From Atriophallophorus winterbourni (Eukaryota; Platyhelminthes; Trematoda; Plagiorchiida; Microphallidae), in contig JACCGJ010002714.1 of the NCBI GenBank assembly GCA_013407085.1, positions 62,001-126,000 on the forward strand: DNA of 64,000 nucleotides, in the 5' to 3' direction. The translations under genes were made by a program, and so were the position numbers. Positions 12,484 through 62,439 of this stretch are shown here, one piece after another (the first letter of the stretch is position 1; every line of letters starts with the position of its first letter). The notes under the pieces were generated by a model. That model did not search any database and was not told where the DNA came from. It saw nothing but the letters and a program-made list of their open reading frames with translations.

Positions 12484-12499
12484 AAAACTACTCTTACCA

Positions 12500-14050
12500 A
12501 TTCCACTCAAATTTATTTGCATTCAGAAGACTTTACTTTAGACCGCTCACATTGAAAGCAGACTAGTTTAGTTGAGATATGCTCACATACGGACACATTG
12601 TTCAGTGTTTGAATCAACATTTTAACTGTTAATTTTTGTTCAAGTTAACGATCCCGCAGATCAAGTGAGATAACTCTAATGTTGCTGAAAAGCAATTGTC
12701 TTTACATTGATCTGGCATGTTTATTCATTTGCTCTTTAGCCGGAATGTCAAGAAGCGATTGGAACGTGTGATTATTTACACATTCGCAAACGTGGTTGCC
12801 TTTCCGATGACTAAATTTGCAGACCAGTGTTTCCGCTCTCTTCGTTATCAAGAGTGAATGATGACAGGATGACATGTTGTGCGCGTATGCCACTGTCGCT
12901 TAATATTGGTACGATCAACCTCTTCAATCAAATTTCATAAGGTATGCTTGAAGGCATAGCAGGCAAATAAGCATTTTTTGTTGATCATACGTTATATACC
13001 AATCTAAATGTGTATAAGCAAATGTAATTGAGTATGTTTATCGTACCAAAGCTTTTAACACTGGCATACATGCGCAAATTGTTTATCGTGATTCCATCCA
13101 CGCGGATACTGAATTTGTTTTCCGTATTTGATGAGTTCAAACAATACGAAACCGGTCCTGAAGTATGTGTGTGTGTGAAGATAATACATGCGAACAGGTT
13201 TGTTTTCAAGGCTTGTAATTTTAAACTTGATATACGTGTGTAAAGGCTCATGTGCTTGAACAAGTTGGTAGATCAGTGAGTTGAAATATGTTTCGCTGAT
13301 TAAGAATAATGTCTAATTTTAGCCAACCAAAGAAACTGGCTGTTTTATTCGTTATAAGCAGTGCCTTCTAACACTGGGGGAAAGCAGGTACTGCTCACGG
13401 CAGCGAATCGTTGATCACGGCGTCAGCGTACAACTCAAGTCGAACTTCCTTGTACTGTTTTTCGCGGTGGTTGAAATGGGCGAGATATTAACTGACGAAT
13501 CCTAATGCTGTTGAATATGAAGCTATAGTACACATGTAATGTACATCCACGTACCACATCATCCGAACGATGCCAAAACATCAATTACAAGAAACACGTT
13601 GCTTGTGTAATCGAGAGACATGCCTCAGAATTTTGCATTAATACTAAATGTTTCAATGAGTTAGTGATCGCGATTTTGCTCAGTTTTAAAACAACATAGT
13701 TGATGGTAGTGGTCATGGATTTATGAAATTCAGAGAGTGACACGTCATATAGCTTTAGGATTCATCAAGCTATATGGATATTCAAAAACAGCTTTCGATT
13801 AATTATTGTTCCTCATGTTTATACTGTGACTCGAATTTCAGTTATACAGCTCCAGCTTAACTCTACGCATGCACAAATATGGAACAACTTATTTACACGA
13901 TAGTAAACGATAGTATGCCATAAAAGTATCAAGGTATGATGGCGGGTAGGGTTTTGAAAGGTCAGAATGTTATACATTTCTCCTTGAGTATTTTACTGCA
14001 AATGGCCTTCTTCACCATTGCTATAGTATCATGGCCAAAAACCCGATCCC
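12500..14050. other. No recognisable feature
   Basis: About 1.5 kb without supportable ORFs. It holds only a short similarity to 4.7-4.85 kb (12,820-12,950) and a small GT run near 13,166. Confidence 0.3.
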
Positions 14051-17647: not shown

Positions 17648-18976
17648 ATGCTTGTGCACAAACCACTGAACAGTGCTGCTCATAACCCTGACCGGATGAC
17701 CCCAAAACGAAAACAAAGCGCACCGGGCTGCATGTGTGCGGTTTGCCGAAAGTCGGTAAGTCCTAAGGCAAAGTCTGTCACATGTTACCATTGTTTGTCG
17801 AAAGTTCATGCTAAATGCGACAAATCGCTGACCTCGGATTTAGTATCGATTATTAATGGAGATGATTGCCCTGGTGTTTGTTATGTTTGTCTGGTTTGCA
17901 AGGCCAAATCAACACCGTCAGCCTCGGCGACGAAAACCCCTGAATATGATATTGAGACGCGTCTAAATGGAATGGAATCCAGTATACAAAAATTAAATGA
18001 ACTGATAATAAACGTTATAAAGACACCGTCGTTACCCGTCGTTACTGCCGAAGAGCCGGTAGATAATCCATCATACTCAACTTTACCACCAAACCAATCA
18101 ATGGAAAAGGTTGAATTCTTGCAGCACAGCACCCAGCAGAGTGTTAAAAGCGTCTTAAAGCCGAAAACGTTCACATCGAAGGCCCCGTTAGCGAAAGTTG
18201 CCTCTAAAGGAATTTCTCTTAGTGTTATCTGCACCAACGTGCCAGAGTCGACTGAGACTTTATTTTCGAATAGACATCAGGATGATTTGGCTGAATGGTT
18301 GAAACTGTGCACTCGCATGAATCTCAAAGCGATCCACCCGGTTTCGTTGATTCGCTTGAGTCGTCCTCCCAAAGCGCTACACCAAGATAAGCCGCGGTTG
18401 CTCAAGGTAGTAGTGCAAAATGAGAAGGACTTAGAAGATGTACTTCTGTCGACATACTTGCTACGAGACGACATGGAAAATACATCTCGTGTATTTGTTG
18501 ATGTGCCCTGGTCGGAACGGGCAAAATCGCCACTGAAAGGTAACCAAAATAAAGCAAACGATCGCAACAAGCGCACCCTTATTCTGTTAAATGTCCCAGA
18601 AGATGCCACCGGTTCCGATACAAAGTGTAAATCCAACCACGACCTACAACAGTGGAGATTTATCAGTAATGCTATCCAAACCACCAATGTAACGGTTATC
18701 GATACGTTCCGAATCCCAAAGTCATCGAATTACGAAGGTAATGGTCCACGACCCCTTAAACTGACACTTTTGACCACCACTATGGTGAACACCGTGCTTA
18801 ACAACTGGAAACAGTATCGATACAAAGTTCCACGAGAGATCAAAATTGTCGGTAAACACCTGAAAACCTGCTCTATCGTGGAAGTTGCCGGACCCGTTGG
18901 TAATGAGCACAGTGATGCCGGGACTCCTGCTCCAAAAAACGGATGTCGACCGACTCTATCGGAGTCGGTGATGTAA
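17648..18976 (+). CDS. CR1 ORF1 protein: PHD-type zinc finger plus two RNA-binding-like repeats
   Basis: 442 residues. The second Met (residue 17, position 17,696) may be the true start, because related ORF1s begin just before the first Cys pair. Residues 30-84 form a PHD-like C4HC3 finger (C30, C33, C46, C49, H54, C57, C81, C84), with an extra C78. A low-complexity linker leads to two tandem modules of similar layout: LSVICTNVPES...DLAEWLKLC...LIRLSRPP...PRLLKVV, then TLILLNVPEDA...DLQQWRFIS...DTFRIPKS...GPRPLKLTLL. Both resemble the RRM-like domain of non-LTR ORF1s. The expected role is to coat element RNA and help target-primed reverse transcription. The stop overlaps the ORF2 start by 34 nt in another frame. 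Confidence 0.85.
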   Translation: MLVHKPLNSAAHNPDRMTPKRKQSAPGCMCAVCRKSVSPKAKSVTCYHCLSKVHAKCDKSLTSDLVSIINGDDCPGVCYVCLVCKAKSTPSASATKTPEYDIETRLNGMESSIQKLNELIINVIKTPSLPVVTAEEPVDNPSYSTLPPNQSMEKVEFLQHSTQQSVKSVLKPKTFTSKAPLAKVASKGISLSVICTNVPESTETLFSNRHQDDLAEWLKLCTRMNLKAIHPVSLIRLSRPPKALHQDKPRLLKVVVQNEKDLEDVLLSTYLLRDDMENTSRVFVDVPWSERAKSPLKGNQNKANDRNKRTLILLNVPEDATGSDTKCKSNHDLQQWRFISNAIQTTNVTVIDTFRIPKSSNYEGNGPRPLKLTLLTTTMVNTVLNNWKQYRYKVPREIKIVGKHLKTCSIVEVAGPVGNEHSDAGTPAPKNGCRPTLSESVM

Positions 18977-21858
18977 TATACCCATTAACACGAGGCCCAA
19001 CATCTTTGACACGTACTCAACTTACATGCTCAAATACTCATCATCCAACACTTTTATCAAGATCTACCATCAAATGTTTATACACCAACGCACAATGCTT
19101 GATAAATAAGTTACCCGAACTAATCGAGCTTCGTCAAAAATATTCACCACTCCTGATAGCCGTAACGGAAACTTGGTTCAATCAGCAATTAGTTGAGGAG
19201 GAAATTTCCATTCCAAACATGTTTCTTTTTCATCGTACTCGAATGGATCGTGGAGGAGGAGGTGTTGCTATTTACTATGATCAACACCTCACGTTCAGAG
19301 AAATCACGGATAATGATTTGATACTGGAAGATACACTTTGGTGTTCACTTGAATTAGCAACAGGTGAAAACTGTGTTGTTGGTGTGATTTACCGACCACC
19401 GTCAGCAGACGAAGCATACAATGCTAGTTTAATTGAGAAAACTCAGCTGGTTGTTTCCAGATATCAAAACAACGTCCTGATCATGGGTGACTTTAATCTC
19501 CCGAATTTACTAAAAAGCGAGATTCCACCGGTGAACTCTCTTGATCATCTATTCTACAAAATGTTCAACGAAATTCCTTTATTCAACCACATCTCAAGCA
19601 GCACTCGCTTCAGAGGCACAAACACACCGTCCATTCTCGATCTTGTTTTGACTAGCGAGGAAAATGTCATCGAGGATATCCGTTATGAAGCACCTCTTGG
19701 AAAGAGTGATCATGTAGTCATTGTTTTCGACTATATATCTGAAGCGATAAGAGCAAGTGATGCTCAGAAGTTGATAAGAAAAATCGATACGGTTGCATTA
19801 TCAATGTCTCTTCAAGAAGTCACCGACTGGGCACCGATTAGCACTGATGTCCAACAATGCTGGTCATCGATACTTCAGAAAATCAACCGAAAAATAGAAC
19901 TCCACTCAAAATATGTTTCAAAACAACTGAAAAAAGGATTCAAATTCGTGATCCGGAGTCGAACACGGAAATGGATAAAGGTGAGAAACTGTGCGTGGAG
20001 AAGCCACATACTGCATTCAACACCTGAATCTTGGGAATCTTACCGTTTGTTGAGAAACAAAGTTACTAAACTTGTCCAGGAGGATAAAGAAAAGTATCAA
20101 ATGAATCTGATGGATAAAATTGAACGAAATCCGAAGCTCCTCTTCCAGATCGTGAACAGAAAGGCCAGGGTAAAGCCAGGTGTTTCTGCTTTACTTACAA
20201 CAACTGGAACTACATCCACAGCTCTCGAAGCCGCTAACGAACTCGCTCAATTTTACTCTAGAGTGTTCTACCCTAACGAGCGCGTATCCTACGATATACC
20301 TGCATTCAGGTCGCAGAATACAATACACGAAATCGTTGTGAAACCCGAGAGTGTCCTGGTAAAGCTACGCGGGTTAAATACAAAAAAATCCCCAGGTGCT
20401 GATGAAATAACACCATTCATCCTAAAGCAATGCGCCCATGCTCTATTCTCACCACTCTCTGACCTTTTCAACCTGTCCTTGAGTTGTAGCACGGTTGCTA
20501 ATGACTGGAAATGTGGACTAATCACTCCGATATACAAAGGAGGGAACCGATCTGATGCGTCTAACTACAGACCAGTCACGTTGTTGCCAGTGGTCTCTAA
20601 AGTTCTCGAACGACTTGTGGCCGACGAACTTATCAAACACTTGGAACAAAATAAGCTTCTTTCCATCGCACAGCACGGATTCAGGACAAGACACTCCTGT
20701 CTCACCAATCTTCTCATAACTCTTGATAATTGGACTCGAGCCGTGGACGATGGATGCCCTATCCATGCGTGTTACTTGGACATGTCTAAAGCTTTTGATC
20801 GTGTTAACCACAGCATACTGCTACAAAAATTGGAGCAGCTCGGGGTATGCGGCAGATTATTGGCCTGGATAAAGGACTACTTGACTGGTAGAGTTATAAG
20901 GGTTAGAGTTGATGGGGCACTATCAAGCCCAGTAGAAGTTACAAGTGGCGTACCTCAAGGCTCAGTCTTGGGGCCAATACTCTTCCTCGTGTACGCGAAT
21001 GATATACCTGAAATCGTACGCAGAAAAATCATTTTATTTGCGGATGACATCAAAGTCTGGACTAGCATACGCACCATAGAAGATTGCGAAATTCTGCAAA
21101 AAGATCTCGAAGCACTTCATAATTGGTCCTTGCGGAACTGCTTACCATTCAACATCCAAAAATGTAAAATGTTGAACGTCGGTAAATCATTCGAATTCTC
21201 ATACTCTCTGGGATCTCAGCAACTTCCATGGGTTACTGAAGAGAAAGACCTGGGCGTGTGGATTAGCAGTAACCTGAAGTCTTCACGGCACTGTTCTGTT
21301 GTATACAAAAAGTCCTGCCAAATCTTAGCATTGCTCAGAAGGATCTTCGGTCGTTTCTCAAAGCAGATACTCCCACGTATAATTAACACCTATATCAGAC
21401 CAACAATGGAGTATGCTGTTCAAGCATGGTCCCCATGGTTACAAAAGGACATGACCTTGCTGCAACGGGTATACCACCGCGCTACAAAACTGGTGACCGG
21501 TCTATACAACAGGCCATACGAGGAGCGGATTGCAACACTAAACCTCTTTGACTTTTCGTACCGTCGTCTCAGGGGTGACTTGATCCTGCTTTTCAATATT
21601 CTGCATACAGTGGATCACCCACTCGAACACCTGTTTCATCGGCAAGAAGCACGTGGTAGCAGATCGCATGGATACAAGTTAATTATTCCACACTCCAGAT
21701 CAAATTGTCGAAGGTTTTTCTTTGCTGTCAGAGTCTGTTTTCTATGGAACTCCCTGCCCCCACATATCATTTGCGCAACAAGCCTGAACATGTTCAAGGC
21801 TGAACTTGACAAGTATATGTTGACCAAACCCAACCTTGCACCTGAATACACGTGCTGA
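18943..21858 (+). CDS. CR1 ORF2 polyprotein: endonuclease and reverse transcriptase
   Basis: 971 residues, a normal length for CR1 ORF2. N-terminal APE-type endonuclease: TETWF with catalytic Glu76, GGGVAIYYDQ, VVGVIYRPPSADEAY, GDFNLPN (about residue 182) and SDHVVIVFDY (about 255). Central RT: KSPGADEITPFILKQC, LITPIYKGGNRSDASNYRPV (about 526-545), QHGFRTRHSC, YLDMSKAFDRVNHSILL, SGVPQGSVLGPILFLVY (about 667) and FADDIKVW (about 699) with its Asp pair. The thumb and C-terminal domain include EKDLGVWISS, RRIFGRFSKQ, NTYIRPTMEYAVQAWSPWLQ and RVCFLWNSLP. The ATG at 18,943 overlaps the end of ORF1 (stop at 18,974-18,976), which suggests termination-reinitiation or ribosomal coupling. No catalytic residue appears missing. 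Confidence 0.9.
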   Translation: MSTDSIGVGDVIYPLTRGPTSLTRTQLTCSNTHHPTLLSRSTIKCLYTNAQCLINKLPELIELRQKYSPLLIAVTETWFNQQLVEEEISIPNMFLFHRTRMDRGGGGVAIYYDQHLTFREITDNDLILEDTLWCSLELATGENCVVGVIYRPPSADEAYNASLIEKTQLVVSRYQNNVLIMGDFNLPNLLKSEIPPVNSLDHLFYKMFNEIPLFNHISSSTRFRGTNTPSILDLVLTSEENVIEDIRYEAPLGKSDHVVIVFDYISEAIRASDAQKLIRKIDTVALSMSLQEVTDWAPISTDVQQCWSSILQKINRKIELHSKYVSKQLKKGFKFVIRSRTRKWIKVRNCAWRSHILHSTPESWESYRLLRNKVTKLVQEDKEKYQMNLMDKIERNPKLLFQIVNRKARVKPGVSALLTTTGTTSTALEAANELAQFYSRVFYPNERVSYDIPAFRSQNTIHEIVVKPESVLVKLRGLNTKKSPGADEITPFILKQCAHALFSPLSDLFNLSLSCSTVANDWKCGLITPIYKGGNRSDASNYRPVTLLPVVSKVLERLVADELIKHLEQNKLLSIAQHGFRTRHSCLTNLLITLDNWTRAVDDGCPIHACYLDMSKAFDRVNHSILLQKLEQLGVCGRLLAWIKDYLTGRVIRVRVDGALSSPVEVTSGVPQGSVLGPILFLVYANDIPEIVRRKIILFADDIKVWTSIRTIEDCEILQKDLEALHNWSLRNCLPFNIQKCKMLNVGKSFEFSYSLGSQQLPWVTEEKDLGVWISSNLKSSRHCSVVYKKSCQILALLRRIFGRFSKQILPRIINTYIRPTMEYAVQAWSPWLQKDMTLLQRVYHRATKLVTGLYNRPYEERIATLNLFDFSYRRLRGDLILLFNILHTVDHPLEHLFHRQEARGSRSHGYKLIIPHSRSNCRRFFFAVRVCFLWNSLPPHIICATSLNMFKAELDKYMLTKPNLAPEYTC

Positions 21859-27876: not shown

Positions 27877-29312
27877 AGTGCAGATATGTAAGCAACACAT
27901 CATATTGGTCCTCCGCAAGCGCCTAAAGTAATCGACCACGAAACACTATGTGATTCTGAGTTCTGAACGTGTGTTGTGGGAACGCTGTAACAGTGATATT
28001 CAATATAACCTAGTTCTGCATTTATCCGCTGTTTCAAGGCTCATTGAAACTGGTTTTTCTGTCTCCACCTGATGAGGTCAAACAACCAGAATCATGGAGT
28101 GATATGTAACTGCCACTGATGTAAGCAAAACAAGACTTTGGGCATCCATACGGCTCTGGAGAGCTTTAAACGAATCACTATGTGATTCTGTGTTTGAACA
28201 TAGCGGTTCTTTGTACGAACCATATACAACAGTGGCATTCAAGTATAACCTTGTTTACGATTTATCTACGGTTTTCAAGGCTCACTGAACTCAATCTCAT
28301 TGTCCCAACCAGATGACAGCAAACAGCCAGAAACCCGTAGTGCAGTGTTATTGCGAGGATGTAACCAACACATTTCTTTGGTCATCCTTAAGCGCCTCGA
28401 ACGCTCAACCACGAATCACTATGTATTTCTGAGTTTGAACATCTCGTCCGTTATAGGAACGCTGTGTAACAGTGGCATTCAAGTATAACCTTGTTCAGCA
28501 TTTATCAGCTGTTTCAAGGCTCATTAAAACTGATTTTACAGTATCCACCTTATGACGGCAAACAGCCAGATACCGGTAGTCGTGTGTAACTGCGAATGAT
28601 GCGAGCGAAGCATTACTTTGATTATATTCAGGCGCCTCCGAAGCTAGAATACCAATCACTACGTGATTCTGTGCTTAAACATAGTTGTTCGTTGTAAGAA
28701 ATATATGTAACAGTGGCTTTTACGTATAACCTTTTTACAATTTAGCCACTGTTTCAAGTCTCATTGAAAATAATATTACTTTATCCACCTGATGACGTCG
28801 AACAGCCAGAAACCGGTAGTGGTGTGTAAGTTCGGGGATCTGAGCATCATATTACTTATGTCATCCATAAGCGCCTTGAGTGCTCGACCACGAATCACTA
28901 TGTGATTCTCTGTGAGAACATCGTGATTCGTTGCACGATCCCAATGCAGCAATGGCATTTAAGTATAACCTTGTTTACCATTTATCCACTGTTTCAACGC
29001 TCAATGATCCTAATCTTACTATCTCCACCTGATGAGGGCAAAGAGCCAGAAGCCGGTAGTGGAGTGTAAGTTCGGGGGATGTGAGCAACATATTACTTTG
29101 GTCTTCCATAATCGCTTTGAGTACTTCACCAGGAATCACTTTGTGATTCTGCGTTTGAACATTGTGGTTCGTTGTAGGAACACTATGCAACAGTGGCATT
29201 CAAGTATAACCTTCTTTACCATTTATCCACTGTTTCTAGACTCACTGAAACTGATCTTACTGTCTCCACCTGACGATGGCAAACAGCGAGAAACCGGTAG
29301 TGCAGTGTAAAG
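27877..29312 (+). repeat. Family-B hammerhead repeat array, about six units
   Basis: Head-to-tail units of about 240 nt. Each has TAAGTGCGGGGGATGTGAGC, TTTGGTCATCC, the perfect hairpin GAATCACTATGTGATTC, AACAGTGGCATTCAAGTATA, a TTTATCCACTGTTTCAAGG block and a hammerhead motif (cores near 28,069, 28,310, 28,549, 28,789, 29,029 and 29,270). Only the unit at 28,789 keeps an unaltered core. Others have CAGATGA, CTTATGA or changes in GAAAC. The array starts exactly at the 3' tail of the type-B CR1 and is the continuation of 22,785-23,066. Confidence 0.8.
28783..28824 (+). ncRNA. Minimal type I hammerhead ribozyme (family B)
   Basis: Stem I CCAC (28,785-28,788) pairs with GTGG (28,819-28,822). The core is CTGATGA (28,789-28,795); stem II is weak in this copy. 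GAA is followed by a two-base-pair stem III read from ACCGGT (AC/GU closing CG), then cleavage triplet GUA, predicted cut after 28,818. All conserved core bases are present. Such short stem III hammerheads are known from newt satellite, PLEs and animal retrozymes and often act best as dimers. Confidence 0.65.
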
Positions 29313-40462: not shown

Positions 40463-41608
40463 CTTTTGCACTGCAACCAATGAAATAGACTGAGCATTTC
40501 ATGCCTCAGTGGAAAAATACAACGAATTTGAGCAGCATTGGGGGACAGCCTATCAGATCGAGCATTTCAAAATAGACCCAATAACCAACAACTTCGGTCT
40601 TGCTCATGCTGGTTTTTTGCCCAAATGCATTGCAAGCTGACAAGAAACAGTACATTAGCGTTTTGAGGTTCTCTTGGGAGTGAACAATAAATGCTGCATC
40701 GACGGCAAACAGCGGGTCTCGGATAAGCACATCTCGTGCAATGGTTTTGTCCTCTCAATTTATTCAGTTTTACAAGCTTGCCATCTCTCTATGTGCGTAG
40801 GTAAATGGCTTGTGTCCTGGTCCCGAGAATGTGCTTGAGATGCGACGAGAAGCATACACAAAAAGCGTTTGAGCAAGCCCACACTTAGTTGACGCCTTGA
40901 TTGATTTCAAATGCGTCGAAACTGAAACCATTAAAATAGACTGAGCCCTTCATGCCGGCGTTGAACAAAATAACGCGTTAAACCAGTCTTGAGAACAACC
41001 TATGAGATTGAACATTTTGAAAAGTCGTTACCTGCTGACGTGGTCCAAACCATTCGTTAAATCAATAAAACATCCTATTATGTCGTTCCCGACACTCCTC
41101 TTGAAGTTGTCTCATGGAAAAGATCATGTCAACGGTTAATCTTTTCTTGCAAAAGCCACATTGAAATTCGTAGTAAATACTGTCCGCTAAAATTTGTAGT
41201 TGGATCTGCAAGACTTCAGCAAACAGTTTGCCTACAAAATACAGAAGGGAGAATCATTCGTAATTGTTGCATACGACTATATAACCGTTATATTTACATA
41301 TATTGATGATCTTCGTGTATTGAACCTCTTGTGGGACCGGCTCATTCAGCTAGCCATGAAGAAGCGAATTATGAACATGTTGTAATGATGCTTCTCTGCA
41401 GCATTTAGTGAGCTCAGGTGATTGTTGTCGCCACTATAACCCTTCCTTTTCGCTTATCTGTCGATTATATCTAGAGATTCAATGGTTGGCAACCGTTTGA
41501 CATTTTCAAGTGCATGCGTTAGAACCGTACTGTCCCTGAAGTAGAGAAATGAAGGATCCTCTACCCATCTTTCCATCTGTTGAGTTTTGTCGACAATAGG
41601 GTTATTAG
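40463..41608 (-). pseudogene. RTE-like ORF2, reverse transcriptase half
   Basis: Minus strand, several frames: VDKTQQMERWVED and LTHALENVKRLPTIESLD (just left of the array), GKLFAEVLQIQLQILADSIY, EFQCGFCKKRLTVDMIFSMR and QLQEECRERHNRMFY (about 41,240-41,020). KGSVYFNGF and NQGV follow, then an FADD-region remnant (LFAVDAAFIVHSQENLKTLM, with FAVD in place of FADD; 40,730-40,570). A second copy of the LIGCPP...MK.SVYF block (40,463-40,565) lies out of order downstream. It is the 3' continuation of 46,313-48,308, separated from it by the hammerhead array. The C-terminal domain is missing. Confidence 0.7.
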
Positions 41609-41616
41609 ATACAGAC
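41609..41616. repeat. 8-bp target-site duplication, left of the array
   Basis: ATACAGAC immediately left of the first array base. The same 8 bases lie immediately right of the array at 46,305-46,312. Removing the array and one copy rejoins the RTE frame on the minus strand (K-S-V-S-N-N-P-I-V-D-K). Confidence 0.8.
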
Positions 41617-44600
41617 AAACCTCGAAACCGGTCCTGTGCTTCCGGTGAGATTTGAGCGTTTCGGAATGGTATTCTACTTCGAACTAGCCTGGGGTTGTAA
41701 TAACCCTCGCGGTAACAGGCCGTTCGATCAGTTGGGGCTTAGTTTAGTCCCTTCAGCTACTTATAAAGTAGCGAGTAGACGCGAACTTCGATTCACATTG
41801 CGCCATCCGTCTACACAAATACTAGTTCGAAACGCGAAGAGTCCAGCGGATACGCATAGCTGATGAGAGGCAAAAACCTCGAAACCGGTCCTGTGCTTCC
41901 GGTGAGATTTTAGCGTTTCGGAATGGTATTCTACTCCGAACTAGCCTGGGGTTGTAATAACCCTCGCGGCAACAGGCCGTTCGATCAGTTGGGGCTTAGT
42001 TTAGTCCCTTCAGCTACTTATAAAGTAGCGAGTAGACGCGAACTTCGATTCACATTGCGCCATCCGTCTACACAAATACTAGTTCGAAACGCGAAGAGTC
42101 CAGCGGATACGCATAGCTGATGAGAGGCAAAAACCTCGAAACCGGTCCTGTGCTTCCGGTGAGATTTTAGCGTTTCGGAATGGTATTCTACTTCGAACTA
42201 GCCTGGGGTTGTAATAACCCTCGCGGCAACAGGCCGTTCGATCAGTTGGGGCTTAGTTTAGTCCCTTCAGCTACTTATAAAGTAGCGAGTAGACGCGAAC
42301 TTCGATTCACATTGCGCCATCCGTCTACACAAATACTAGTTCGAAACGCGAAGAGTCCAGCGGATACGCATAGCTGATGAGAGGCAAAAACCTCGAAACC
42401 GGTCCTGTGCTTCCGGTGAGATTTTAGCGTTTCGGAATGGTATTCTACTTCGAACTAGCCTGGGGTTGTAATAACCCTCGCGGCAACAGGCCGTTCGATC
42501 AGTTGGGGCTTAGTTTAGTCCCTTCAGCTACTTATAAAGTAGCGAGTAGACGCGAACTTCGATTCACATTGCGCCATCCGTCTACACAAATACTAGTTCG
42601 AAACGCGAAGAGTCCAGCGGATATGCATAGCTGATGAGAGGCAAAATCCTCGAAACCGGTCCGGTGCTTCCGGTGAGATTTTAGCGTTTCGGAATGGTAT
42701 TCTACTTCAAACTAGCCTGGGGTTGTAATAACCCTCGCGGCAACAGGCCGTTCGATCAGTTGGGGCTTAGATTAGTCCCTTCAGCTACATATAAAGTAGC
42801 GAGTAGACGCGAACTTCGATTCACATTGCGCCATCCGTGTACACAAAAACTAATTCGAAACGCGAAGAGTCCAGCGGATACGCATAGCTGATGAGAGGCA
42901 AAAACCTCGAAACCGGTCCTGTGCTTCCGGTGAGATTTTAGCGTTTCGGAATGGTATTCTACTTCGAACTAGCCTGGGGTTGTAATAACCCTCGCGGCAA
43001 CAGGCCGTTCGATCAGTTGGGCTTAGTTTAGTCCCTTCAGCTACTTATAAAGTAGCGAGTAGACGCGAACTTCGATTCACATTGCGCATCCGTCTACACA
43101 AATACTAGTTCGAAACGCGAAGAGTCCAGCGGATACGCATAGCTGATGAGAGGCAAAACCTCGAAACCGGTCCTGTGCTTCCGGTGAGATTTTAGCGTTT
43201 CGGAATGGTATTCTACTTCGAACTAGCCTGGGGTTGTAATAACCCTCGCGGCAACAGGCCGTTCGATCAGTTGGGGCTTAGTTTAGTCCCTTCAGCTACT
43301 TATAAAGTAGCGAGTAGACGCGAACTTCGATTCACATTGCGCCATCCGTCTACACAAATACTAGTTCGAAACGCGAAGAGTCCAGCGGATACGCATAGCT
43401 GATGAGAGGCAAAAACCTCGAAACCGGTCCTGTGCTTCCGGTGAGATTTTAGCGTTTCGGAATGGTATTCTACTTCGAACTAGCCTGGGGTTGTAATAAC
43501 CCTCGCGGCAACAGGCCGTTCGATCAGTTGGGCTTAGTTTAGTCCCTTCAGCTACTTATAAAGTAGCGAGTAGACGCGAACTTCGATTCACATTGCGCCA
43601 TCCGTCTACACAAATACTAGTTCGAAACGCGAAGAGTCCAGCGGATACGCATAGCTGATGAGAGGCAAAACCTCGAAACCGGTCCTGTGCTTCCGGTGAG
43701 ATTTTAGCGTTTCGGAATGGTATTCTACTTCGAACTAGCCTGGGGTTGTAATAACCCTCGCGGCAACAGGCCGTTCGATCAGTTGGGGCTTAGTTTAGTC
43801 CCTTCAGCTACTTATAAAGTAGCGAGTAGACGCGAACTTCGATTCACATTGCGCCATCCGTCTACACAAATACTAGTTCGAAACGCGAAGAGTCCAGCGG
43901 ATACGCATAGCTGATGAGAGGCAAAAACCTCAAAACCGGTCCTGTGCTTCCGGTGAGATTTTAGCGTTTCGGAATGGTATTCTACTTCGAACTAGCCTGG
44001 GGTTGTAATAACCCTCGCAAAAACAGGCCGTTCGATCAGTTGGGGCTTAGTTCAGTCCCTTCAGCTACTTATAAAGTAGCGAGTAGACGCGAACTTCGAT
44101 TCACATTGCGCCATCCGTTTACACAAATACTAGTTCGAAACGCGAAGAGTCCAGCGAATACGCATAGCTGATTAGAGGCAAAAACCTCGAAACCGGTCCT
44201 GTGCTTCCGGTGAGATTTTAGCGTTTCGGAATGGTATTCTACTTCGAACTAGCCTGGGGTTGTAATAACCCTCGCGGAAACAGGCCGTTCGATCAGTTGG
44301 AGCTTAGTTTAGTCCCTTCAGCTACTTAAAAAGTAGCGAGTAGACGCGAACTTCGATTCACATTGCGCCATCCGTCTACACAAATACTAGTTCGAAACGC
44401 GAAGAGTCCAGCGGATACGCATAGATGATGAGAGGCAAAAAACCTCGAAAACGGTCCTGTGTTCCGGTGAAATTTTTGCGTTTCGGAATGGTATTCTACT
44501 TCGAACTAGCCTGGGGTTGTAATAACCCTCGCGGTAACAGGCCGTTCGATCAGTTGGGGCTTAGTTTAGTCCCTTCAGCTACTTATAAAGTAGCGAGTAG

Positions 44601-46304
44601 ACGCGAACTTCGATTCACATTGCGCCATCCGTCTACACAAATAGTAGTTCGAAACGCGAAGAGTCCAGCGGATACGCATAGCTGATGAGAGGCAAAAACC
44701 TCGAAACCGGTCCTGTGCTTCCGGTGAGATTTTAGCGTTTCGGAATGGTATTCTACTTCGAACTAGCCTGGGGTTGTAATAACCCTCGCGGCAACAGGCC
44801 GTTCGATCAGTTGGGGCTTAGTTTAGTCCCTTCAGCTACTTATAAATTAGCGAGTAGACGCGAACTTCGATTCACATTGCGCCATCCGTGTACACAAATA
44901 CTAGTTCGAAACGCGAAGAGTCCAGCGGATACGCATAGCTGATGAGAGGCAAAAACCTCGAAACCGGTCCTGTGCTTCCGGTGAGATCTTAGCGTTTCGG
45001 AATGGTATTCTACTTCGAACTAGCATTGGGTTGTAATAACCCTCGCGGCAACAGGCCGTTCGATCAGTTTTGGCTTAGTTTAGTCCCTTCAGCTACTTAT
45101 AAAGTAGCGAGTAGACGCGAACTTCGATTAACATTGCGCCATCCGTCTACACAAATACTAGTTCGAAACGCGAAGAGTCCAGCAGATACGCATAGCTGAT
45201 GAGAGGCAAAAACCTCTAAACCGGTCCTGTCCTTCCGGTGAGATTTTAGCGTTTCGGAATGGTATTCTACTTCGAACTAGCCTGGGGTTGTAATAACCCT
45301 CGCGGCAACAGGCCGTTCGATCAGTTGGGGCTTAGTTTAGTCCCTTCAGCTACATATAAAGTAGCGAGTAGACGCGAACTTCGATTCACATTACGCCATC
45401 CGTCTACACAAAAACTAGTTCGAAACGCGAAGAGTCCAGCGGATACGCATAGCTGATGAGAGGCAAAAACCTCGAAACCGGTCCTGTGCTTCCGGTGAGA
45501 TTTTAGCGTTTCGGAATGGTATTCTACTTCGATCTAGCCTGGGGTTGTAATAACCCTCGCGGCAACAGGCCGTTCGATCAGTTGGGGCTTAGTTTAGTCC
45601 CTTCAGCTACTTATAAAGTAGTGAGTAGACGCGAACTTCGATTCACATTGCGCCATCCGTCTACACAAATAGTAGTTCGAAACGCGAAGAGTCCAGCGGA
45701 TACGCATAGCTGATGAGAGGCAAAAAACCTCGAAACCGGTCTTGTGCCTCCGAAGAGATTTTAGCGTTTCGGAATGGTATTCTACTTCGAACTAGCCTGG
45801 GGTTGTAATAACCCTCGCAAAAACAGGCCGTTCGATCAGTTGGGGCTTAGTTCAGTCCCTTCAGCTACTTATAAAGTAGCGAGTAGACGCGAACTTCGAT
45901 TCACATTTCGCCATCCGTCTACACAAATACTAGTTCGAAACGCGAAGAGTCCAGCGGATACGCATAGCAGATGAGAGGCAAAACCCTCGAAACCGGTCCT
46001 GTGCTTCCGGTGAGATTTTAGCGTTTCGGAATGGTATTCTACTTCAAACTAGCCTGGGGTTGTAATAACCCTCGCGGCAACAGGCCGTTCGATCAGTTTT
46101 GGCTTAGTTTAGTCCCTTCAGCTACTTATAAAGTAGCGAGTAGACGCGAACTTCGATTCACATTGCCCCATCCGTCTACACAAATAATAGTTCGAAACGC
46201 GAAGAGTCCAGCGGATACGCATAGCTGATGAGAGGCAAAAACCTCGAAACCGGTCCTGTGCTTCCGGTGAGATTTTAGCGTTTCGGAATGGTATTCTACT
46301 TCGA
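41617..46304 (+). repeat. Family-A hammerhead satellite array, about 18.2 units of 257 nt
   Basis: Anchor ATGGTATTCTACTTC recurs at 41,666, 41,923, 42,180, 42,437, 42,694, 42,951, 43,205, 43,462, 43,717, 43,974, 44,231, 44,488, 44,745, 45,002, 45,259, 45,516, 45,774, 46,031 and 46,288. Spacing is 257 except for a few 1-3-nt indels. Each unit has a hammerhead ribozyme, the hairpins GGGTTGTAATAACCC and GCTACTTATAAAGTAGC (the latter TATA-like) and a 65-codon ORF. The array is partial at both ends (starts AAACCTCGAAACC, ends TTCTACTTCGA), and neither end is the ribozyme cut site. It lies inside an RTE element with an 8-bp duplication. Copy-to-copy identity is very high in the left half and lower on the right. 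Confidence 0.95.
41842..41906 (+). ncRNA. Minimal type I hammerhead ribozyme (family A), first full copy of 18
   Basis: CTGATGA at 41,860-41,866, stem II AGG-CAAAAA-CCT, then C-GAA (41,880-41,883), stem III ACCGGT (AC/GU closing CG) and triplet GUC. Predicted cut after 41,890. Stem I is GCATAG/CTGTGC, an internal loop, then CGGA/TCCG. Further copies have CTGATGA at 42,117, 42,374, 42,631, 42,888, 43,143, 43,399, 43,655, 44,682, 44,939, 45,453, 45,710 and 46,225; these 13 keep all core bases. Five are mutated: 43,911 (G12 to A), 44,168 (G8 to T), 44,425 (C3 to A, stem III also changed), 45,196 (G12 to T) and 45,968 (U4 to A). Tandem transcripts should self-cleave into 257-nt monomers with cyclic-phosphate ends that can be ligated to circles. 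Confidence 0.85.
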
Positions 46305-46312
46305 ATACAGAC
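46305..46312. repeat. 8-bp target-site duplication, right of the array
   Basis: ATACAGAC, identical to 41,609-41,616. RTE sequence continues to its right. Confidence 0.8.
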
Positions 46313-48308
46313 TTAATGTTTGTTTGTTTGTTTGTTTGTGCCAATGGCTCACCTAATCCCATCATACATACCGTGAAAATTTCCTGTATCCGCAGCGTTT
46401 TGGATATTGAGGCTAATTTCAGTCCAGTAGTCGTTTGCACATCGCCATGCAGCCTGTTTGACCTTATTTCTAGCTGCTCTTATACGTCGTAAGTCTTCAG
46501 CTGTTGGCATACCTTTGAACCTTAGGAATGATGAGCGTTTTCCATCCAAAACAGCAGTCATCTGTGGAGCCTTTGCTTCGCTCGTTTGAGCTTTCTTCGG
46601 ACCGAAACTTGAAAGTGAGATCCGTCATATGCAGCTTTTTATCGATTCCTAGTTTTCTGAAGCCAAATCGAGTGGGGTTGTTTTGATGAACTCGGCTGTG
46701 AAGGATTTCGCAAATCGCGCAGCTAGATTAGGTTTGCATATGCGAGTGACGTCTATCCTATGCTTAGCAGACAATTTGGTTCAGTGAAATCTCGTGTAGG
46801 AAATCACATGCACAGACTAATGCATGATCAGTGTCACAGTCTGCGCTTTGATATGATCTGGTGAGGAGTACGCCTCCTATATTAGTGTGCCTAACAAAAA
46901 TAAGATCAAGCTGATGCCAACGCTTAGAGCAAGGATGTTTCCAACAGACCTTATGCTGCGGTTTAATTTAAAAGAACGTGTTACTGACACAAAGACTGAA
47001 CTGTTTGCACAATTATAACAGGTGTAGTCCATTTCCATTGATTTCACCTGCACGAAAACTCCTAAGACAGTTTTGTTAAGACTCGTAATCAGCACCAACT
47101 CTAGCAGTGAAATTACCCAATACCACAAAACAGTTTTTTTGTGGCACGTTTTTGAGGAGATTTGTGAGGTTGTGATATTAAGCGTCTTTTTCAGGAGGTG
47201 TCGCAAAGAGCGTCGGTGCATAAACTTTGGTTAACGTAATGGTACCAGTAATGCACTTTAGATTTGAAGTCCAAATCCGTTCGATCCCACTTTTGCTCGG
47301 TTCTTCCGCTTATAGTAGGTTGTTTTGAATGGTAAACCTATCTTAACGCAGTCGAGGCTCATCGAAACACCTTCCTTTCCGAAAAATGTGCAGTCACATT
47401 CTGTTTGTATATCAGTGTCTACTAATCGCGCTCTTGCAGAGCAGTCACGTCAAGATGCAGCCTCTTTAGCTTATTGTTAATTACAGCTGATTTCTTACGC
47501 CTTTGATATTCGAGACGTCGTCATGAAATCCAGGAAGCATGGACGGGACGTTCGAGGTTCCCAGTTTCAGAAATGACATTTGTAATTTAGTAGTTCGTTT
47601 CGCTGGTGCAAAATGCAATCTGCTTGTCTTTTGATTCCTAATCTCCAAGCACCCAATGAGGATAGCAGACGAGACGGCGAGTCGGCACCATATTGACTGG
47701 GGGCTGCCCAGCTTAAGGTGGGCGGTAACCATATAATGAGACCTAAAATTCTCTCCCTCGTCAGAGGCAGATGGTATCCGCTGCTTCCCGCGTGATTATC
47801 CGTAGAAGCGGAATAGAGTGTCCTCTCCATTGGTGCGTTGTGATGTACGTCAGGGCAGTTCAAAATAAAGAACTAGCTGTTGCTCATGCAGCAAGGGCTC
47901 CCTCTCTACGGCACCACCGCAACCAAAGAAACAGCTAGGTTGATTCGTTTGGACAACGATGCAGTCACAGAAGCTGGCAGGACGACGTTGAATAATCTTC
48001 GGACTGCTTAACGGTATTCTGGCTCTCTAGGTTGAGTCATGAAGCCTTTTCTACGATCGGATGTAGCCGAAAAGCAGTGGAGGTTTAAGATAATGGTTTT
48101 TCTTCCCCATGCCTGTTTTCAGGCGCCAGTCAGCCGTGTCCGCCCTTTTCCCTGTCAGTAGAAGCAGTTCCGCCGGGTCACACTGGACAACACGTGCAGG
48201 CCAGGAGCTGGATTGGTTGTCTTATGCTATATGAGACGCGTGCAATTGGAGCATTTTTGGAATTGAGAGATTATCCCCAAAACCGCACCGGCTTTTACAA
48301 CCTTGGAA
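46313..48308 (-). pseudogene. RTE-like element, 5' region and endonuclease half
   Basis: Minus strand from 48,308. The 5' region (shared with 37,786-38,170) leads into an endonuclease beginning with KRTTKLQMSFLKLGTSNVPS (about 47,640), in place of the family's TWNVRT-type start. KRLHLDVTALQE follows, then LGNFTARVGADYE, KPQHKVCWKHPCSKRWHQLD and ADCDTDHALVC (47,200-46,800, in broken frames). The linker RRIRAARNKVKQAAWRCAND, GNFHGMYDGIR follows (46,561-46,349), with a TGTT/AAAC run near 46,319-46,338. The frame then meets the hammerhead array. Many frameshifts; not functional. Confidence 0.68.
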
Positions 48309-48967: not shown

Positions 48968-49770
48968 ATCAATCCAAACAGCCGGAAAACGGTAGTGGTA
49001 AGTGCGGGGCGTGTGAGAAATAAATTACTTTGGTCATCCATAAGCGCCTAGAGTGCTTGACCACCACGAATCACTACGTGATTCTGTGTTTGAACAGCCC
49101 GCTCCGTTGAGCGAAACGTATGTAACAGTGGCATTCAAGTACAACCTTGTTTAAAAATTAAAAACTGTTTCAAGTCTTCTTGAAACTAATCTCAATGTCT
49201 CCACCGGATAACAGCAATTAGCCAGAAATCGGTGGTGGGGTGCATGTGCGGAACGTGTGAGCAACACATTACTTTGGTCATCCATAAGCGCCTTGATTGC
49301 TCGACCACAATTCACTATGTGATTCCGTGTTTGAACATCGTGGTTCATAGTACGATCCCTGTTTAATACTGGCATTTAAATATAACCTGATTTATAATTC
49401 ATTCTCTGTTTCAAGGCTCACTAAAACTAATCTTACTGTTTCCAGCGAATGACAGCAAAAACCCAGAAACCAGTAGTGGTGTGTAAGTGCGGGTGATGTG
49501 AGCAACACAGTACTTTGTTTATTCATGAGCGCCTCGAGTGATGGACCAGAAATCACTATGTGATTTTGTATTGGAACATCCTGGTTCGTTGTAACAGTGA
49601 CATTCAAGTATAACCTTGTTTAGCATTTAAACACTGTTTCAAGTCTCACTGAAACTAATCTTACTGTATCCACCTAATGCCGCCAATCAGTTAGAAAATG
49701 GTAGTGGTGTGTATTTGCACAAGATGTGAGCAACACATTACTTTGGTTATCCATAAGCTTCTTGAGTGAA
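48968..49770 (+). repeat. Family-B hammerhead repeats, degenerate
   Basis: Begins inside a hammerhead (CCAAACAGCCGGAAAACGG), the continuation of the core broken at 48,838. It runs through about three more units with altered cores at about 49,204 (CGGATAA), 49,445 (CGAATGA) and 49,678 (CTAATGC). None looks active. It ends near 49,770 in unrecognised sequence. Confidence 0.72.
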
Positions 49771-58231: not shown

Positions 58232-59348
58232 CTCGAGATTCACATAGTGATTTATTCTCGAGCACTCGAGACGCCTATGGATAACCAAATAATGTGGTGC
58301 CAACAAACGCCACACTTACACACCACAACCGGTATCTGGTTGTTTGAGGTTGTTAGGTTGAGACAGCAAGATTAGTTTCAGTGAGACTTGAAACAGTGCA
58401 TAAATGGTTAACAATGTTATACTTAAATACCACTGTTACATAGGGTTCGTATTAAGAACCACGAAGTTGAAATACAGAATCATATGATAAATCGCACTCG
58501 AAGAGCTTATGGATTACCAAATTATTTTGTGGCTCAAATAACCCGCACGTACACACCACTACCGGTTTCTGGCTGTTGGCCGTCATCAGGTGGAGACAGA
58601 GTGGCAAGTTTAGGTATGCATTGAAACAGTGGATAATGGCTAAGCAAAGTTTTACATAAAAGCCACGGTTACAAAGTATTCGTATATACAACCACGACGT
58701 TCGAACACAGAATCACTTTGTAATTCGTGGTAGAGCACTCGAGACGCTTACATATATAACCAAAGTGATGTGTTGCTCACATATCCCTTACTAAAAACTA
58801 CTACCGGTGTCCGGCAGTTCAGCTTCATCAGGTGGAGACAGTAAGATAAGGTACAGTTAGCCATGGAAAAGTGTTTATATTTTAAACAAGGTTAACATTA
58901 AAAGCCACTGTTGCATAGGGTTCGTACACGAACCACGATGTTCAAACACAGAATCGCATAGTGATTCGTGGTCGAGCAGATGAGGCGCTTGAGGATTACC
59001 GAAGTAATGTGTTGTTCACATCTCCCGCACTTACTCACCAATTCCTGGTTCTGGCTGTTTGGCGTTCTCAGGTAGAGACAGTAAGAATAGTTACAGTGAG
59101 CCATGAAACAGTGAATAAATGCTGACAAGGTTATACTTGAATGCCACTGTTACATAGGAGTCGTATAACGAACGTAGATGTTCAAACACAGAATCACATT
59201 GTGCAGTGTGGTGTAGCAATTGAATCGCTTATAGATCACCATTGAAATGTGTTTTTCACATCCGCCGCGCTTGAACAACAGTGCCAAAAGCTAGCTATTT
59301 GCTGTCATCAGGTTGAGACAGTAAGATTACGTACAGTGAACCATAAAG
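58232..59348 (-). repeat. Family-B hammerhead repeat array, about four and a half units
   Basis: Minus-strand units of about 240 nt with the hairpin GAATCACTATGTGATTC (diverged copies) and hammerheads near 58,325, 58,555, 58,800, 59,040 and 59,280. Only the second keeps a full core. The left end abuts the 3' tail of the type-D CR1 (58,231). The right end abuts the 3' tail of the HAL1-like element (59,349). Confidence 0.78.
58554..58596 (-). ncRNA. Minimal type I hammerhead ribozyme (family B)
   Basis: Minus strand: stem I CCAC (58,593-58,590) with GTGG (58,559-58,556). The core is CTGATGA (58,589-58,583); stem II is GGC-CAACA-GCC; then GAA, stem III ACCGGT and triplet GUA. The predicted cut is between 58,560 and 58,559. 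Core and stems are intact. Confidence 0.75.
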
Positions 59349-59511: not shown

Positions 59512-62378
59512 AAGTGATTCAAAGTGATTCAAAGTTGTAATGGTCTAAAAAGCATTTAGCTTAACAATAACCATAGGATGGAGTTATGAGGTATATACAA
59601 TAAAAAAGAAGAACAGGAAAACTCATGTAGTGTAAATCGTATCAAAGTTTGGGTTGTCTCTCAAGTATTTGTCCAAATTAGCTTTAAAAATATCCAGGTT
59701 GGCTGAGTGTGTAACAGTGGAGGGGAGGGTGTTCCATGTGAAACTTACACGTACAGCATACGAATATCTTCGACAGTTCAGTCTTGAAGTGGGAATAAGC
59801 ACTGAAAGTTCATGTTTCCGACTGGCACGGGGTGGCGAGCGTGTGAAAAGTTTGGACAAGGGATGGTTAGGGACGTGCATAATATTGTACATCAGTATGA
59901 GGTCACCTCTTAGTCGACGACAGCGAAAGTCGAAAAGATTGAGACTCCTCAAACGTTCTTCATATGGTTTAGCAGCTAGTCCGGGTACAAGCTTTGTGGT
60001 TCGGTGGTAAATACGCTGCAGAAGATTGATGTCTTTCTGAATCCAGGGTGACCAAGCCTGAACAGCGTACTCCATCGCTGGTCTCAGATAGGTGTTCATG
60101 ATACGGGGCACCGACTGATTGGAGAATCTGCCGAAAATTCGTCTCAATAACGCCAATACTTGTGACGCCTTTTTGTATGCCGCTTTGCACTGCAGTGAAG
60201 TCTTCAGACTTGAACTGGTCCAAACACCCAAATCCTTCTCTTCAGTTGTCCAGACGAGTTGGTGGGACCCAAGAGTGTAGTTGTAATTAACAGTCTTTCC
60301 AATGTTTAACGCCTTGCACTTTTGGAAGTTGAATGGTAGTTTGTTTCTCAAAGACCAATCTTGCAATGTGTTTAGATCCTTCTGCAAAGTTTCACAGTCA
60401 TCATTGGTACGTATGCTTCTCCAAAGCTTTATATCGTCTGCAAATAACATAATCTTGCATTTAACACGCTCGGGAATGTCGTTTGCGTAGATCAAAAACA
60501 AAATCGGTCCGAGGACCGAACCCTGGGGCACTCCGCTCGTAATTTTGAATGGTTTCGATAAGGCGCCGTCAACTCTGACTTGGGCACTCCTGTCGCGTAA
60601 ATAGTTTTCTAGCCAAGCAAGAAGTTTTCCTGTTATCCCGTGCAATTCAAGTTTCTGGATTAAAATACTATGATTGACGCGGTCGAAAGCCTTTGACATG
60701 TCTAAAAAGCATGCGTGGATGGAGTAACCATTGTCCACACACTCAGTCCAGTCGTTTAAGGTGAGCAAGAGGTTAGATAGACATGAGTGATGTTTCCTGA
60801 AACCGTGCTGTTCAGTCGCAAGCAGTCTATTGTTTTCGAGGTGATGGGTGATCTTTTCCGCTACTAAACTCTCTAGCACTTTAGAAATTACTGGCAACAA
60901 CGTAACTGGTCTATAGTTCGCAGCGTCAGATCGACTCCCGCCCTTGTAGATTGGTGTGATGATACCAGATTTCCATTCCGCGGGAACGATACTATTTTCG
61001 AGCGAAATTTGGAATAATGTGCTGAGTGGACCACACAATGAGGATGCGCATCGTTTGAGGATAAAAGGAGTGATTCCATCTGCTCCTGGTGACTTTGCGG
61101 TATTCAAACGAAGAAGTTTGAGCATGACACACTCATTGTTTATTGAGATTTCATTTAGTATTTCATTGGAAAAGCCAATCGAATGCGGTGTAAGATGCAC
61201 TGATTCCTTGGGGCAAAACACTTTGCAGTAGTAACCTGCAAGAACTTCGGCAGCCTCGAACGCAGTCGTAGTTAGACCATTTGGTGTGCGTAGTGCTGAG
61301 ATTCCTGGCTTAATTTTTGATGTAGTGTTAACGATCTGGTACAGGACTTTGGGGTTCCGCTCCATCATGGTCAGTAGTCTTGCCTGATGAGACTGCTTAT
61401 CCTCGGTGATAAGAGAGGTGACCTTGTTCCTCAACAGACGATATGTTTCCCAATTATCTGGCATCGGATTGTGGACATAGTTTCTCCATGCATCGTTGCG
61501 TATCTTAATCCACTTCCTTGTGCGGCTTCTCAACGTGAAGGTAAATCGTTTTTTCGCTGTCTGTGGCACAAGTCTGGAATGTAGGTTTATTTCATCACAC
61601 AGCTTCTCTGTGAAGTTTACCCAAGAACGATGCACGTCCGTGGTGTCTGGTTTCCAGTCAGAAATCGTTCGAAGAGCATTTTGAAGACTTCCAATATCCA
61701 GTTGTAGTTTTGTTTTGTTGATGTCATTCGTTCTCTCAGCTTGACAAACATAATCGAATAAGAGGACCAGGTGGTCGCTAGAACCCAATGGAGTTTCGTA
61801 GCTCAGATTTTCGACGGCATGTTCCTCACTCGTTAGTATTAGATCCAGGACAGATGGCATGTTACCATCTCTATATCTAGTGTTATCGAAGACGTGGTTA
61901 TAAAAAGGAATATCGAAGATCAGTTCTTGAAACGCCTCGTCGAGCGAATTCGTTGAAAGAGCATTATTCTTCATCAAGTTTGGAAGGTTGAAGTCTCCCA
62001 TAACCAGGAGTGGCGATTGAAATCTGGCAGCCAGAAGTCGAATTTTCTGGAGTAGTTCAACATTGTGCGCATCACTTGCGCTTGGAGCCCGATAAATCAC
62101 GCCAATAATACAATCATCTCCGGTAGTCTGCTTAATTGAGCACCACAGAGTATCCTGTACACGTAGGTCAATATCGTCAATTTCTCTGCAGGATAACTGT
62201 TGGTTGTAGTAAAGTGCTACGCCACCGCCGCGTCCCAAACGGTCTTGACGGAGAAGACACATTCCTTTTAATGCCAATTCATTGTCTGATAAGTGAGGTT
62301 CAAACCATGTTTCGGTAATTGCAACTAAGTCCGGTGAGTGCTGTGTACATACGGTATCAAGCTCCTGTATTTTGTTTC
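59512..62378 (-). mobile_element. 5'-truncated type-A CR1 inserted in the HAL1-like element
   Basis: Host sequence breaks between CCCTGA (62,384-62,379) and ATTTGG, and resumes at 59,511. The insert begins in the ORF2 endonuclease region, runs through the whole RT and ends with ACTTTGAATC repeats (59,535-59,512). TGA at the two junctions may be a 3-bp TSD. Same orientation as the host. Only about the first 50 residues of ORF2 and all of ORF1 are missing. Confidence 0.78.
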
Positions 62379-62439
62379 TCAGGGTTTTGTTTGACGTATG
62401 CATCCAATTTCGATTTAAAAATATCAATTGTCGTTGCAT
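59623..62439 (-). CDS. CR1 type-A ORF2 with a new N-terminus, otherwise intact
   Basis: 938 open codons. Residues 1-20 (MQRQLIFLNRNWMHTSNKTL) are read out of frame from the host HAL1-like element. Element-derived sequence starts at residue 21 (RNKIQELDTVCTQHSPDLVA). Endonuclease motifs: ITETWFEPHLSDNEL, GGGVALYYNQ, IIGVIYRAPSASDAHN, LVMGDFNLPNLM, LGSSDHLVLLFDY. RT motifs: KSPGADGITPFILKRC, ITPIYKGGSRSDAANYRPVT, QHGFRKHHSCLSNLL, FLDMSKAFDRVNHSILI, SGVPQGSVLGPILFLIY, LFADDIKLW. C-terminus: NCRRYSYAVRVSFTWNTLPS. All catalytic motifs seen are intact. The conserved NAQCL segment of the family's start, upstream of TETW, is lost, which probably impairs the endonuclease. Confidence 0.82.
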   Translation of the reverse strand: MQRQLIFLNRNWMHTSNKTLRNKIQELDTVCTQHSPDLVAITETWFEPHLSDNELALKGMCLLRQDRLGRGGGVALYYNQQLSCREIDDIDLRVQDTLWCSIKQTTGDDCIIGVIYRAPSASDAHNVELLQKIRLLAARFQSPLLVMGDFNLPNLMKNNALSTNSLDEAFQELIFDIPFYNHVFDNTRYRDGNMPSVLDLILTSEEHAVENLSYETPLGSSDHLVLLFDYVCQAERTNDINKTKLQLDIGSLQNALRTISDWKPDTTDVHRSWVNFTEKLCDEINLHSRLVPQTAKKRFTFTLRSRTRKWIKIRNDAWRNYVHNPMPDNWETYRLLRNKVTSLITEDKQSHQARLLTMMERNPKVLYQIVNTTSKIKPGISALRTPNGLTTTAFEAAEVLAGYYCKVFCPKESVHLTPHSIGFSNEILNEISINNECVMLKLLRLNTAKSPGADGITPFILKRCASSLCGPLSTLFQISLENSIVPAEWKSGIITPIYKGGSRSDAANYRPVTLLPVISKVLESLVAEKITHHLENNRLLATEQHGFRKHHSCLSNLLLTLNDWTECVDNGYSIHACFLDMSKAFDRVNHSILIQKLELHGITGKLLAWLENYLRDRSAQVRVDGALSKPFKITSGVPQGSVLGPILFLIYANDIPERVKCKIMLFADDIKLWRSIRTNDDCETLQKDLNTLQDWSLRNKLPFNFQKCKALNIGKTVNYNYTLGSHQLVWTTEEKDLGVWTSSSLKTSLQCKAAYKKASQVLALLRRIFGRFSNQSVPRIMNTYLRPAMEYAVQAWSPWIQKDINLLQRIYHRTTKLVPGLAAKPYEERLRSLNLFDFRCRRLRGDLILMYNIMHVPNHPLSKLFTRSPPRASRKHELSVLIPTSRLNCRRYSYAVRVSFTWNTLPSTVTHSANLDIFKANLDKYLRDNPNFDTIYTT

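Follow-up and report, generated by a model that had tools for sequence, protein, structure and literature searches.

The question raised by this locus is how a long head-to-tail array of hammerhead ribozyme repeats came to lie within a retrotransposon copy of the trematode Atriophallophorus winterbourni. The array is located in a 64-kb stretch of contig C2215 (positions 62001-126000; the whole of this stretch is referred to herein as the window), from a 537-Mb assembly of 15,840 contigs, and we use the term family A for the 257-nt type I hammerhead repeat family to which it belongs. We propose, with a probability of about 0.75, that the array is an animal retrozyme, lacking long terminal repeats (non-LTR), that was inserted by the reverse transcriptase of a Penelope-like element (PLE) starting inside a circular or multimeric RNA. 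This proposal builds on an integration event at the window locus, on the fixed 3′ ends, scattered 5′ ends and inverted products of family A, and on a like pattern in the PLEs of the same genome.

The window array, whose length is taken from a single assembly, has a period of 257, 18.3 copies and 97% matches according to Tandem Repeats Finder. It begins at unit phase 241 and stops at 49/50 past the ribozyme cut, a position referred to below as site B. The Rfam hammerhead model RF02275 gives 18 matches on the plus strand (best 42.5 bits, E 1.7e-7), and at its curated cut-off of 52 bits no hammerhead is reported in the array. The full CTGATGA..GAAACCGGTC core is retained at 13 places and the alignment, read by eye, has the type I layout; cleavage is predicted to occur after GTC, and the first such cut, placed from the motif, would follow position 41633. 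Stem III of the family-A hammerhead is the palindrome ACCGGU without a loop, so that pairing between two copies is likely. The unit has a GC content of 49%. An intact core is present at 282 of 367 family-A unit junctions. Among the listed stop-to-stop stretches of at least 100 aa, the longest in the array is on the minus strand (46126-46479) and spans the 3′ edge; no protein-family search was made there. The array is not itself a PLE, and only its insertion footprint is PLE-like.

An earlier, sequence-only reading held that an exact 8-bp duplication surrounds the array and that the array descends from an integration event rather than from local drift, and both statements are borne out. The 8-mer ATACAGAC stands at each edge (Table 1), and since the array ends in the same letter, A, with which the duplication begins, its 3′ edge can be placed to within one base. 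The pair is called a duplication because of its placement and because of an empty site. Specifically, the target with a single ATACAGAC that the earlier reading had suggested looking for exists in the same assembly, at two places on contig C4529 (L031 and L032), where the flanks are joined via one ATACAGAC with no array and are 95% (left) and 98% (right) identical to those of the window target. When the right flank was used to search for further copies of the target, 40 matches were listed, namely the window, the two C4529 places at 97% and 37 places at 86-87%. All 15 of the more distant copies that were fetched from these 37 are without the array and have one related 8-mer each, and a doubled 8-mer without an array, which would have spoken against insertion, is present in none of the 17 target copies fetched. 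The target, a putative RTE element, is a dead copy, with losses of 30 nt and 2 nt relative to L039 and a shifted frame, and the same is true of the empty copies. The in-frame joint that had been read across the insertion point holds locally, where IKSVSNNPIVDKTQQMERW reads across, and fails for the copy as a whole; since the target and the empty copies were frameshifted beforehand, we do not use the joint as proof of insertion.

Table 1. Features of the window that bear on the family-A insertion, in window positions
Feature	Positions	Strand	Remarks
Broken PLE remnant (reverse transcriptase part)	10833-11882	+	RVT_1 E 3.1e-6 on 11199-11882, 27.5 bits, below the cut-off of 29.6
Left part of dead retrotransposon target	40902-41608	-	Extent covered by empty site L031
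Left copy of the 8-bp target-site duplication	41609-41616		Single copy at empty sites L031 and L032
Family-A array	41617-46304	+	4688 bp, 18.24 units of 257 nt, head-to-tail
First complete type I hammerhead of the array	41842-41913	+	One per unit; Rfam matches
Right copy of the duplication	46305-46312		Exact match to left copy
Right part of dead retrotransposon target	46313-46662	-	97% identical to two C4529 places

The insertion can also be placed in time. Contig C12263 has the same left junction as the window, with 97.9% identity across 4.4 kb of flank, and is collinear with it in three 1-kb samples farther out (96.3, 97.5 and 93.0%). C12263 is therefore another haplotype or else a large duplicated segment, and the array was already in place when the two diverged. 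The parallel runs through C12263:1-35000, from window position 43147 back to about 1490, at 93-98% where sampled and with a length that differs by about 8 kb.

One could argue that no insertion took place, the array having arisen by slippage in place or having spread as DNA circles, with the flanking 8-mers alike by chance. Satellites can indeed spread as DNA circles, and ATACAGAC alone is not rare (2 found versus 1.9 expected in 64 kb, hence about two by chance). At the window locus the empty sites with one ATACAGAC refute this explanation, and the family-A insertions elsewhere, with their frequent duplications and fixed 3′ ends, leave it extremely improbable overall. A genome search with the family-A unit gave at least 368 matches; 37 stretches were fetched from the listed contigs and six contigs were extended, so that the loci are the best matches only and may include some unrecognised haplotype pairs. 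Mapping of the array ends with two unit subfamilies as queries gave 19 insertions with both outer ends. At seven of these, but at none of 342 mismatched flank pairs, an exact direct repeat of 8 bp or more lies no farther than 5 nt from either edge; the seven measure 8, 9, 10, 13, 13, 13 and 14 bp (microhomology included), and no repeat of the mismatched pairs exceeds 6 bp. With a looser 14-nt rule, the counts are 8/18 (one being an artefact inside the unit) versus 5/306 mismatched pairs. Flanking duplications are thus present at other family-A loci, where their absence would have counted against integration. Because of the empty site and these edge duplications, we conclude that the window array is the product of an integration event.

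The ends of the arrays show a strong asymmetry. Measured from the cut, 36 of 38 3′ ends fall at 43-54 (site B) or 161-171 (site A), and the best two 12-nt windows contain 36 of the 38 versus a random-phase mean of 10.1 and a maximum of 14 in 400 draws. The 5′ ends look random, with 11 of 29 in the best two windows (random 8.4, maximum 12). DNA circles would break at any phase, contrary to this use of two stretches by the 3′ ends while the 5′ ends scatter. Sites A (~167 nt past the cut) and B (~50 nt past it) are ~117 nt apart and are used about equally. None of the 38 3′ ends is at the ribozyme cut itself, the nearest being 18 nt past it (on contig C10244), so that the avoidance of the cut noticed at the window array extends to every 3′ end measured. 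Left out of the counts were L001-L010, which overlap other loci, and ends that were open at a fetch or contig border; L016 (the window's own locus) and L066 (flank the same as that of L062) were dropped from the 5′ list, and also set aside were an isolated 51-bp hammerhead motif at phase 7 in L020 and a 22-bp palindrome match in L060. The minus arm of L057 (raw phase 33) was counted outside the end clusters; by eye it represents site B after a 10-nt internal loss, and it was used so only for the composite count given below. L011 and the minus arm of L030 have 20 nt of 3′ flank in common and may not be wholly independent.

Seven of the family-A insertions are head-to-head composites of two inverted arrays (L014, L026, L030, L056, L057, C12291 and C7158). 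Both outer ends are known for six, and in five of the six one arm ends at A and the other at B (L057 by eye); duplications of 9-14 bp are found at four of the six.

The PLEs of this genome leave a similar footprint. When the broken PLE remnant of the window was used as query, 7497 candidates were obtained, of which 150 were scored; related elements with long open frames abound, the longest frame being 837 aa, and copies in tandem are spaced 2.83-2.84 kb apart. One copy, L068, has an RVT_1 match of 32.7 bits, above the cut-off, and its frame is immediately preceded by CTGACGA..GAAACGTT^ACC, which by eye resembles a hammerhead. To locate PLE ends, the query was a segment ending 42 nt past the PLE cut; 40 copies were listed, all identical to it, and the downstream side was fetched for 39 (the 40th is L068), so ends before +42 could not appear. 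Nine of the 39 run on, eight end at +42 to +49 and 22 end at +82 to +88, such that all 30 copies that reach +42 and then end do so at the two sites. Two pairs among the 22 share a flank, which leaves 20 independent. PLE copies met by chance in other loci end in the same two regions, with a few ends between or before them (+3, +22, +42, +53, +77 and +85 to +87). Both of the head-to-head PLE inserts that were checked have one arm per site, with duplications of 13 and 14 bp (microhomology included); a third such pair, on contig C9354, is not among these two. The window itself also contains PLE terminal pieces at 12072-12118 and 12195-12531, whose 3′ edges are at approximately +85 and +53 from the PLE cut.

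The enzyme could instead have been that of a long interspersed nuclear element (LINE) of this genome, CR1-like or RTE-like, in which case the inverted composites would be the result of ordinary twin priming. Candidates are at hand in the window, where long open LINE frames (938 and 980 aa) give matches to RVT_1 and to endonuclease, and LINEs would likewise account for 5′ ends that scatter, for inversions and for duplications of 8-14 bp. LINEs are not known to leave 3′ ends at two internal stretches of an RNA that lacks a matching LINE tail, and it is the PLEs here whose ends fall at two sites, each site being used by one arm of both inverted inserts that were checked. We therefore consider the LINE explanation unlikely. 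Stop to stop, the two LINE frames occupy window positions 59623-62439 (minus strand) and 18916-21858 (plus strand). Among the best 120 of 290 matches listed for the 938-aa protein, Paragonimus westermani provides the first named relative (64% identity) and Dicrocoelium dendriticum the second (43-44%); unnamed metagenome proteins rank between the two.

Several observations weigh against insertion by a PLE enzyme. There is no duplication of at least 8 bp at 12 of the 19 two-ended insertions, which may be older or may have been joined via deletion or microhomology, and composite L014 has site A at both arms and no duplication. The GIY-YIG match of L068 is just below its cut-off (20.4 of 22.6 bits, E 6.6e-4), and Rfam scored no hammerhead in the PLE copies, where the motif and the cut are a reading by eye. 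The end sites are ~42 nt apart in the PLEs versus ~117 nt in the retrozyme, and their use is unequal in the PLEs (8 and 22) and about even in the retrozyme. The end sequences of the two are not convincingly alike, and no likeness is claimed: against PLE end 2 both retrozyme ends score 12, where the best of 257 phases scores 14, and against PLE end 1 they rank 79th and 53rd. Finally, ends that fall at two sites could be less special than we think, as ends were mapped for the retrozyme and the PLEs only.

We now put forward the following mechanism for PLE-mediated insertion. By analogy with published retrozymes, the arrays would be transcribed and the hammerhead would cleave the transcripts into 257-nt units, which would then be circularized. 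The PLE reverse transcriptase/endonuclease would use this RNA in trans, primed by the cut target DNA, and would start synthesis inside the RNA at B or at A, so that the observed 3′ end positions would mark start sites; those expected under the model are RNA positions +50 and +167, counted from the cut. Copying would proceed round the circle or along a multimer and halt at a variable point, giving the scattered 5′ ends that are observed. Staggered cuts in the target would produce the duplications of 8-14 bp found at the edges, and priming by both target strands would produce the head-to-head inverted arrays. At the window locus, site B would have been used and the product would have entered the dead retrotransposon copy, either as the full 18-unit array or as its seed, with unit content perhaps altered later through exchange.

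How far the content of the arrays reflects the insertion itself is a separate matter. Of 412 family-A unit matches, 277 are readable at all 11 diagnostic sites, and two linked haplotypes (112 and 67 units) lead and alternate inside many arrays on different contigs. Neighboring units are alike in 196 of 300 cases versus 168.3 (standard deviation 5.9) in shuffled order. Since the arrays mix unit subfamilies, they are not simple clonal expansions, and the mixing could reflect switches of template during circle copying, source transcripts that were themselves mosaic, or exchange once the arrays were inserted. The window array is nearly pure subfamily I, with a mean pairwise difference of 2.5%. At unit 4, the homologous array L016 carries subfamily II where the window has subfamily I, so exchange after insertion plays some part, unless the contig end is misassembled. 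It may be that only a short retrozyme copy was inserted and that the array then grew and was reshuffled by unequal exchange and conversion, a course of events to which we give slightly less than an even chance. It is compatible with the PLE mechanism, as it concerns array length and content only. Short insertions do exist (L056 and L057, with arms of 0.2-1.4 units), the unit of L016 just described points the same way, and some arrays (L011, L022) have private variants in blocks. Growth of a single clone would not yield the mixing of two strongly linked haplotypes, common to unlinked loci, that many arrays show, nor is there a single block length among the rare shared variants of the window array, which are unevenly spaced (units 10/17, 5/15, 14/18 and 6/8). 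In the inverted pair L014, nearly every unit of either arm has the rare variant 75G. This fits repeated copying of a single template on both strands, and could be obtained as well from two short inserted copies of it followed by growth.

A more far-reaching version of the PLE mechanism, which we offer tentatively and regard as rather less likely than not, is that the arrays are a read-out of the ribozyme circle pool of the cell. From a fixed start, the PLE reverse transcriptase would roll round one circle and switch to others, on both target strands at once; circle switching within one insertion would make the subfamilies alternate along single arrays, and the two-strand start would give the inverted arrays. 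Two further measures were dropped as evidence. About 37 of 220 units have their nearest neighbor in their own array, and as a test of mixing this fails because a star-like family makes the least mutated unit everyone's neighbor; the shared diagnostic sites took its place. Type switches are in excess in the 146-nt interval with the cut and the end sites (60/240) relative to a 65-nt inner interval (9/262; p = 0.0003), and this is not proof of jumps at unit ends because uneven recombination fits as well as jumps near unit ends; a cruder count of single-site switches gave no such excess.

The linked sites that separate subfamilies I and II lie outside the hammerhead, in clusters (phases 46-54, 83-92 and 149-167) close to the two 3′ end sites and to the stretches that pair with them. 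In our reading of the predicted circle fold, the subfamily II changes at 46, 47, 50 and 92 swap a 6-bp helix at site B for a longer one in another register, and this model suggests that RNA structure may matter at site B. Variants seen at four or more loci number 16 at 61 hammerhead sites versus 135 at 196 sites elsewhere, and singleton variants are less skewed (38 versus 158). The scarcity of shared variants in the hammerhead fits selection on a presumed active ribozyme in the lineages that spread.

Other hammerhead repeats are also present. A second, older family of ~240 nt with a CTGATGA..GAAACCGGTA motif is much decayed and is found at window positions 27886-29310, 49000-49587 and 58236-59203, with single units elsewhere; family-A arrays are inserted into its units at L017 and L058. 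It was too decayed for clean ends and was dropped as a replicate for the end statistics. A further element, at L020:1290-1560, is small and palindromic; it contains two hammerhead-like motifs inverted relative to each other and is of a different type from family A.

The identity of the enzyme that moves animal retrozymes has so far been a stated guess. PLEs were named as strong candidates on account of features common to both types of element, namely type I hammerheads and tandem arrangement, and of their co-occurrence (PMC7229834, Cervera and de la Pena 2020), and among the open-license PMC papers searched we found no integration evidence for animal retrozymes moved by PLEs. Herein, a single genome is seen to hold the same two-site, two-strand footprint with 8-14 bp duplications in its retrozyme arrays and in its own PLEs, together with an empty site. 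The footprint points to a possible mover, and it shows how hammerhead satellites end up as long arrays at new places.

The excerpts of the same paper describe metazoan non-LTR retrozymes as type I hammerhead elements with tandem units of 150-450 bp and a GC content under 50%, ranging from dimers to large multimers, with target duplications, when present, of more than 4 bp (PMC7229834). Family A agrees in its hammerhead per unit, its 257 bp and 49% GC and its dispersed insertions with duplications of more than 4 bp; what differs from that account is that the insertion footprint is now mapped, as empty site, two fixed 3′ end sites, head-to-head composites and subfamily mosaics. Several other hammerhead repeats are comparable in part. 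The hammerhead satellites or W-elements of schistosomes are, by their description, likewise flatworm repeats with hammerheads, suspected mobility and one possible duplication, and differ in that we found no systematic end map in the excerpts of PMC8490949 used here. Newt satellite 2 and the hammerhead repeats of salamanders (PMC7229834, in part) also have a short stem III, owing to which dimers cleave better, but are vertebrate repeats of about 330 nt. Plant LTR retrozymes (PMC4918200) are likewise non-autonomous, with hammerheads and circular RNA, the latter being supposed for family A by analogy; they have LTRs, a primer binding site and polypurine tract, a type III hammerhead and 4-bp duplications (PMC7229834), in contrast to the type I hammerhead and 8-bp duplication of the window array.

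The closest parallel is with the PLEs themselves. Reverse transcription by the purified PLE Poseidon_Ac is reported to begin at two internal positions of its RNA, with extension of both strands of the target, and Frangieh et al. tie the PLE tail pattern to these two internal start sites and to both-strand extension (PMC11167929, Frangieh 2024). The Penelope PLEs of Adineta are described as having inverted pseudo-LTRs, with a tail on one of them, and duplications of 8-10 bp (PMC3846280, Arkhipova group 2013). Known PLEs and family A are alike in having two 3′ end sites past the hammerhead, tandem and head-to-head structures and duplications of ~8-14 bp, as well as a tail on one of two inverted arms (PMC11167929, PMC3846280). 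They differ in that PLEs encode a reverse transcriptase and a GIY-YIG endonuclease while no coding was seen in the retrozyme unit, and in the distance between their end sites.

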